Of a DNA stretch of 64,000 nt, positions 21,613 through 22,872 are shown piece by piece (position 1 is the stretch's first letter; every line of letters begins with the position of its first letter). This DNA is from Candidatus Kapaibacterium sp. GTDB taxonomy: Bacteria; Bacteroidota; Ignavibacteria; Kapaibacteriales; UBA2268. The stretch lies in contig JAPLFL010000128.1 of the NCBI GenBank assembly GCA_026390695.1, positions 1 through 64,000 of the forward strand, in the 5' to 3' direction. Under the pieces are notes generated by a model. The model saw nothing but the letters and a program-made list of their open reading frames with translations, did not search any database and was not told where the DNA came from. Position numbers and translations under genes: made by a program.

Positions 21613-22872
21613 ATGTTAAAACTAACAGTTTACTTAACCCTGATACTAATCACTGCAACTACGGCTCTTGCCAGGCCACAATACTCAATTTTACAATCTT
21701 ATGGAATCAAATGCACAGGTTGTCATATTTCTATCAATGGCGGTGGCGCTCGTAATGCACAAGGAAACATTTCAAGGAACTCTATAAGTCTTATACCGGC
21801 AGATAAAATTCCGGTTCTTGGGACTGTATTTGATAAAATCTCAAATAATAATTCCTTTTTTGACGATAAGATTATGTGGGGAATGGATGTTCGCTACCAA
21901 TCTGCACGTTGGCCTGCAGCAGCAGATACGGTAACATTAAAAAGAACAGCACGAGATCAGATGATCATGCAATTTACTCCATATTTAATTTTTACTCCAG
22001 TTGAGTGGCTCCAGATCGATGGTCTTTATAATATAGCCTCAGAGATTGATGCAAGATTGATGACTGGTCAGCAGCCCTGGATGGCAGCACTTACAATTAA
22101 AACAACTAATTGGATGGACGGTTGGTTGCCAAACTTTAAAGCAGGTAAATTTCAGCCCGGTATCGGTATCAGATGGGACGATCACACTGTTTTGAACCGA
22201 TATGCTTATGGAGTTAGCAAAGGAAAAGGTACACAAGGGAAAAACGGTGAAGATTATTTCTCAAGAACCCCCTTATATCCATCGGATGATTATGCAGAAT
22301 ACGGAGCAGAACTCAACTTTGAAAAGATTGACTGGCTTGAATTAGCTGTCGGAGGTTTCATGGCGGACAATTTGGTAACGATGTCTCAGATAACAGATAG
22401 AAGCGGAGTTAAGCATAATGTTGTTGATTCGGGTTCTTTTTCATTAACAGGAAAAATTCTTGTTATCCCGCCTGTATGGCATGGAATTGCATCTTTTATT
22501 GGTGGAACATTCTTGAAAAATAATGATTATTTATTATCAAATGCATTCCTAAGTTTTGGTATAGGTGATAAATTCTGTGCTATTGCTGAATTTGCTCGAT
22601 CTGAAAAGAAAGACCTCAGACAAACTCAGGCATATTTATTCGAAGCAGATTATCAGATAAAAGATTATTTGATCCCTTTTGTAAGATTAGAGCACTCCGT
22701 ATGCCGCGAGCATAGCGCTCTTAACCCAATTTATGCAACTCAGTATGATTTTGGTATGCATCTAAATCTTTTACCATTTATTGAATTGATCCCGGAGTAT
22801 AGAATTTTCAGATACGAACACATTCCGGGCTATGCTTCGCAGTGGACATTCCAATTACATGTATTCTATTAA
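21613..22872 (+). CDS. Outer-membrane beta-barrel protein with N-terminal c-type heme motif (cytochrome-porin, Cyc2-like architecture)
   Basis: Signal peptide; SYGIKCTGCHISINGGGARNAQGN; about 390-residue mature region rich in amphipathic strands ending QWTFQLHVFY (terminal aromatic). Confidence 0.75.
   Translation: MLKLTVYLTLILITATTALARPQYSILQSYGIKCTGCHISINGGGARNAQGNISRNSISLIPADKIPVLGTVFDKISNNNSFFDDKIMWGMDVRYQSARWPAAADTVTLKRTARDQMIMQFTPYLIFTPVEWLQIDGLYNIASEIDARLMTGQQPWMAALTIKTTNWMDGWLPNFKAGKFQPGIGIRWDDHTVLNRYAYGVSKGKGTQGKNGEDYFSRTPLYPSDDYAEYGAELNFEKIDWLELAVGGFMADNLVTMSQITDRSGVKHNVVDSGSFSLTGKILVIPPVWHGIASFIGGTFLKNNDYLLSNAFLSFGIGDKFCAIAEFARSEKKDLRQTQAYLFEADYQIKDYLIPFVRLEHSVCREHSALNPIYATQYDFGMHLNLLPFIELIPEYRIFRYEHIPGYASQWTFQLHVFY

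Follow-up and report, generated by a model that had tools for sequence, protein, structure and literature searches.

Cyc2 serves as a marker gene for iron oxidation. Upstream of CxxCH it carries AxPxFAR[QK][TY], a motif unique to it, and the porins OprO and OprP were the templates used for it (PMC8406198). In Mariprofundus, the redox potential of Cyc2 is about +200 mV (PMC8406198). Another cytochrome-porin, Cyc572, has been described from acidophilic Fe(II) oxidisers (PMC10654088). As for the quinol oxidases that might feed an outward chain, reports of ImcH homologues are confined to Fe(III) reducers, while those of CbcL homologues cover Fe(II) oxidisers as well (PMC6295460). A sister family of Cyc2 with other motifs and other partners would be missed by a screen for the FAR motif, or misread as iron oxidation by a looser screen.

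The window analysed here is a stretch of 64,000 nucleotides from Candidatus Kapaibacterium sp. (GenBank assembly GCA_026390695.1, contig JAPLFL010000128.1, positions 1 to 64,000 of the forward strand). Its genome is labelled G000 and its two cytochrome-porins P0001 and P0002. A part of the window unrelated to the porin units holds two tandem, closely similar flagellin genes (44175-46494).

Results

The first cytochrome-porin gene (P0001; 21613..22872, + strand), recognised from its open reading frame, its sequence and an AlphaFold model, encodes 419 amino acids: a signal peptide at about residues 1-20, a heme segment at about 21-60 with C34-TGC-H38, and a barrel at 87-418. The original prediction had reported a signal peptide, a heme motif and a strand-rich part ending in QLHVFY at this position, and the open reading frame and these features were confirmed. 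It had also reported that a paralogue repeats the pattern, and the second gene (P0002; 25308..26555, + strand; 415 amino acids), recognised from its open reading frame and its identity to the first, does so: the protein is 64% identical over its full length and shares the signal peptide, the single CTGCH, GG(G/A)ARNAQGN, the strand-rich remainder and the C-terminal QLHVFY. The window genome has a third, distant paralogue (29% identity) on a different contig, at G000:C37:40110-41318. Sequence searches of Pfam, NCBIfam and the PDB gave no significant match for the porin; as evidence of novelty this weighs little, since two Cyc2-type proteins likewise had no match to an NCBIfam model.

The AlphaFold model, built from the alignment of 51 family members that also underlies the residue counts below, is a confident barrel (pLDDT 85.7, pTM 0.82) of 16-18 strands, depending on how two short strands are counted. 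A barrel of 14-18 strands had been anticipated, and neither Pfam nor NCBIfam placed the protein in a known non-electron-transfer family. The best PDB matches of the barrel model in Foldseek are 16-strand porins, including OprO (4rjw) and OprP (2o4v).

Invariant in all 51 homologues are CxxCH, R47, G51, D92, R94, M119, H191, R358, Q414 and H416. Only three histidines are conserved, each in 51/51: H38 of CxxCH, H191 of a DDH motif, and H416, which stands three residues before the C-terminal tyrosine within QxHxFY. Alternation in the C-terminal strand suggests that H416 would point into the lumen, close to that last strand's periplasmic end. Subfamily C, made up of strongly diverged Ignavibacterial relatives of about 370 amino acids, keeps histidines at the corresponding places and ends in QFH[FI]W[YF] or QLHFWY.

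For comparison with Cyc2 I used 23 proteins that carry FAR[QK]xGxxCxxCH and are encoded in the phylum's genomes or on plasmids, the plasmid probe being a consensus peptide written after the published motif. The N-terminal profiles of the family and of this set align over 41 columns (hhalign 95.7%, E 1e-8), whereas an unrelated cytochrome c used as a control aligned over 14 columns only (E 3.5e-6). The barrel alone gave 3.9% and E 0.011 against Cyc2, little above the control with both reversed (0.037). The common segment reads AxPx[FY]-x4-6-GxxCxxCH and then [RL]NxxG, and the non-multiheme subfamily falls into gap-free register with Cyc2 (ALPQFSLLTGNRCINCH vs AIPSFARQTGMSCNTCH). These profile comparisons, with their reversed and unrelated-cytochrome controls, rule out that the family is unrelated to Cyc2. 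Also shared with Cyc2 are the single N-terminal CxxCH behind a signal peptide (51/51) and a C-terminal 16-strand porin in a protein of at least 365 amino acids (here 419, with 16-18 predicted strands and matches to porins).

That the proteins are ordinary Cyc2 is ruled out in turn by motif tests and by the family-specific barrel histidines. PxFAR[QK] occurs in 0/51 family members vs 22/23 of the Cyc2 set, the latter having been selected on FAR[QK]; PxL downstream of CxxCH occurs in 0/51 vs 13/23, and GGxxR in 48/51 vs 0/23. Within the 23-protein Cyc2 set there is no conserved histidine besides that of CxxCH, and no DDH. An HMM made from the same 23 sequences reached a top score of 24 bits, with P0001 outside the 12 best. 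Two genomes (G137 and G223) each hold a FAR-motif protein plus a member of the present family.

To judge from sequence, the family is a sister of Cyc2, with the N-terminal heme segment and architecture in common, and yet not Cyc2 by the published definition (PMC8406198), because the N-terminus is homologous, FAR[QK][TY] and PxL are missing in 51/51, and two extra histidines are not found in Cyc2. This agrees with the original prediction of a Cyc2-like fused architecture, seen in the heme segment and the predicted barrel, and of a separate cytochrome-porin family, marked by the absent motifs and the two barrel histidines. The claim that the signature is unlike that of Cyc2 survives in part: it holds for FAR[QK][TY] and PxL but fails for the surrounding N-terminus.

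Homologues are present in the genomes of 45 of 60 relatives, so the cytochrome-porin pattern is not a matter of chance. Those found in 54 contigs of public genomes come mostly from Kapabacteria, Ignavibacteria and unclassified Bacteroidetes MAGs, with a minority from a few Myxococcales and from single MAGs labelled Ectothiorhodospiraceae and Desulfobulbaceae. Within a sample of the phylum, 51/73 genomes of the class matched the family vs 1/224 elsewhere, that one match being partial. The family is widespread and apparently without a name; no description of it was found in open-access literature on Kapabacteria and cytochromes, extracellular electron transfer, multihemes or Cyc2, and an earlier account elsewhere is possible. 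The Desulfobulbaceae-labelled sequence is placed by the tree inside a Kapabacteria-type clade and may be mis-binned or transferred. Members linked to multiheme genes, the window copies included, form a single clade (support 100/100) nested among the remaining family.

Each window copy is the middle gene of a unit whose other two genes were absent from the first reading of the window: a hexaheme lipoprotein, the cytochrome-porin and a Tat-exported Rieske lipoprotein, in that order (unit 1, 20367-21524 / 21613-22872 / 22893-23378; unit 2, 24043-25218 / 25308-26555 / 26575-27057). The two units share 72% DNA identity across about 3.0 kb and are a tandem duplication.

The first hexaheme lipoprotein (385 amino acids; 20367..21524, +) has a lipobox, a collagen-like GxK/GxP linker, five CX2CH and one CX3CH sites, and six further invariant histidines; the second (391 amino acids; 24043..25218, +) is 76% identical to it. 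A third (402 amino acids; 18079..19287, +) has a longer collagen-like linker and no cytochrome-porin of its own. Hexaheme proteins of the loci combine five CX2CH with one site that is CX2CH in some and more widely spaced in others, and the six further histidines are invariant across 19 homologues; six CXnCH sites with six such histidines are the pattern expected of bis-His electron carriers. An OmcS-like filament was set aside, since the profile search gave nitrite-reductase-type multihemes instead, and the structure model was poor (pLDDT 56.6), below use for a fold search. Terminator-like hairpins, recognised by pattern match, occupy the gaps between hexaheme and porin genes in both units (21547..21578, +, GAGCTTCGCGGGTTTCGTCGAAGCTC-T7; 25240..25274, +), which would suggest more hexaheme transcript. 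A dispersed intergenic repeat (CACTCCTGCGTATGCAGGAATC...) also seems recurrent in the window genome (window 19480-19600; L004:12918-13208; L124:1397-1714), and spurious open reading frames in it read CIRRND/MQESP.

The Tat-signal Rieske [2Fe-2S] lipoproteins (22893..23378 and 26575..27057, both +) match PF00355 at 8.8e-8 and 9.5e-9, with CPH...CSVH in the first and CPH...CIQH in the second. In bc1-type Rieske proteins a second cysteine pair forms a stabilising disulfide, and Rieske proteins without this pair have a lower potential. Both window copies lack these cysteines, which suggests a lower potential for them; among the Rieske neighbours of cytochrome-porins, 29 have both cysteines, 12 have neither, and 1 is mixed. 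Several of these lipoproteins have C-E-K/Q-D-E following the lipidated cysteine, presumably resembling the surface-export signal of Bacteroidota lipoproteins, and I treat this as a lead only.

Of 53 loci across the family, 39 have a Rieske gene close to the porin, in differing gene orders, and three of the window genome's seven Rieske genes adjoin its three cytochrome-porins. Several multiheme-linked loci run hexaheme, porin, Rieske, monoheme cytochrome c, 13-heme cytochrome, and then b561 or a b561-NapC-like multiheme fusion. In L039, L042, L044, L046, L047, L048 and L060, the genes that come after porin and Rieske are those for cytochrome c, 13-heme cytochrome and b561, with a larger b561-multiheme fusion cluster in L039, L042, L044 and L060. 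The corresponding partner set of the window genome is one operon (L124; G000:C15, about 140.9-148.0 kb) on the same contig as the window units and about 115 kb from them. It encodes a cytochrome c, a 508-residue ImcH-like protein (N-terminal hydrophobic helices, NapC-like and further hemes), a 13-heme cytochrome, a b561, and a 935-residue CbcL-like protein (numerous heme sites, with a b-type membrane part of formate-dehydrogenase-gamma-like kind). ImcH-like and CbcL-like are names given by architecture, for ImcH as in PMC6295460, and by Pfam and NCBIfam domain matches under equivalog cut-offs, rather than by comparison with the Geobacter proteins.

Other arrangements were also seen. In the Ectothiorhodospiraceae-labelled MAG, two Rieske genes lie directly upstream of the cytochrome-porin (L070, about 7500-9762), the usual order reversed. 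Close to a further Rieske gene of the window genome (G000:C41:120048-122504) is a multiheme frame akin to the 13-heme cytochrome, and the site may encode a bc complex to which a multiheme cytochrome is attached. In a deep-branching relative (L050:1194-13481), a protein with an ethylbenzene-dehydrogenase-type domain takes the place of the hexaheme, and the gene run also encodes NuoL/NuoM-like pumps, a cytochrome b and a Rieske protein of bc type.

Subfamily B loci and that of the window genome's third paralogue consist of porin, small membrane protein, YceI (confirmed by Pfam) and Rieske, with no multihemes, so extracellular electron transfer is not implied for the family as a whole. YceI is generally linked to quinones and isoprenoids. 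Subfamily B might reach the outer membrane by a YceI-like lipid-quinone carrier instead of multihemes, and the window copies would then be a multiheme-linked specialisation of that older module. The recurrence of the porin-TM-YceI-Rieske order in many loci, the third paralogue's among them, the Pfam identity of YceI and the nesting of the multiheme-linked clade all fit, but the link between YceI and quinones says little on the window copies, and I hold this course of events to be unlikely.

Subfamily C genes are without Rieske or multihemes within the retrieved stretches. Taken with a barrel most like solute porins, this would suit a heme segment that gates a solute channel as a redox sensor or as a structural plug, in which case no electrons would be exported on balance. 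Such a role is nevertheless improbable in the face of the recurrent Rieske and multiheme linkage, which is strongest in the 100/100-supported clade of the window copies. Beside subfamily C porins there is also a secreted protein of about 225 amino acids with CxxCHVxxxGGG.(R/K)NxFG, very like the porin heme segment (L148:2964-3650, L149:2629-3303, L151:2703-3371, L152:637-1344); it is perhaps a free-standing partner, or the donor of the heme domain.

Discussion

The reading that the fused cytochrome-porin is probably an outer-membrane electron conduit in a chain for extracellular electron transfer is supported by its signal peptide, by the single c-type heme site that its short N-terminal segment carries, by the predicted barrel and by the conserved partners. 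Such a chain would connect the quinone pool, served by ImcH-, CbcL- and b561-like proteins, with monoheme and 13-heme cytochromes of the periplasm, these with the heme of the porin, and this heme in turn with the outer-membrane hexaheme and Rieske lipoproteins; electrons could run along it either way. The heme segment would form a plug at the periplasmic mouth of the barrel, with H38 as the proximal heme ligand and H191, H416 or M119 as the distal one. Because a single heme cannot span the membrane alone, the remaining distance would have to be bridged by small soluble acceptors that come into the pore or by a partner that extends into it.

For such a conduit the outward direction, ending at Fe(III), humics or an acceptor resembling an electrode, is more likely than the inward one, though its odds are no better than about even. 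Outward flow is favoured, by analogy, because of the ImcH-like and CbcL-like partners, given the restriction of reported ImcH homologues to Fe(III) reducers; the two COX1-family genes of the window genome leave room for inward flow. The inward counterpart would be a Cyc2-like Fe(II) oxidase, in which Fe2+ enters the pore and reduces the heme and electrons pass inward to periplasmic carriers and then to an oxidase or the quinone pool. N-terminal homology to Cyc2 and the same barrel class speak for it, and the COX1-family genes perhaps make an oxidase available. I nonetheless find it doubtful, for the Cyc2-defining motifs are missing throughout, the extra barrel histidines suggest other heme ligation and another potential, and the partners differ: here they are multihemes and quinone modules of ImcH/CbcL-like type, while small c-type cytochrome genes adjoin the Cyc2-type genes retrieved for comparison. 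Returning to the outward conduit, a more specific and tentative proposal is that a Cyc2-type single-heme porin carries electrons out from ImcH/CbcL-type quinol oxidases, with a second heme ligand supplied by the barrel and a Rieske protein as outer-membrane partner, a role with which the class is not yet credited.

The family would be a second natural design in which a single heme serves to pass electrons through the outer membrane; H191, H416 and M119 are clear candidate residues for testing. From genomes alone, extracellular electron transfer is suggested in Kapabacteria-group and Ignavibacteria-group lineages.

Among known systems, Cyc2 (PMC8406198) is alike in its signal peptide, one N-terminal CxxCH, length of about 400-450 amino acids, OprO/OprP-like barrel of 16-strand type, and AxPxF...GxxCxxCH...[RL]NxxG. 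The present family differs in having neither FAR[QK][TY] nor PxL, in GG(G/A)xR after the heme site, in the invariant DDH and C-terminal QxHxFY histidines, and in its linkage to Rieske and hexaheme/ImcH-like genes. Also alike, by its description only, is Leptospirillum Cyc572 (PMC10654088), in which a 16-strand porin is fused to a cytochrome bearing an N-terminal CxxCH. Finally, MtrAB/MtoAB/PioAB and OmbB-OmaB-OmcB also join periplasm and surface by an outer-membrane barrel and a heme protein, with multihemes and quinol dehydrogenases as partners. However, the MtrB/OmbB type is a separate, larger porin (26 strands for the MtrB type) with an inserted multiheme cytochrome, whereas the present family, with one heme fused to a smaller barrel, falls outside that kind of porin-cytochrome complex.
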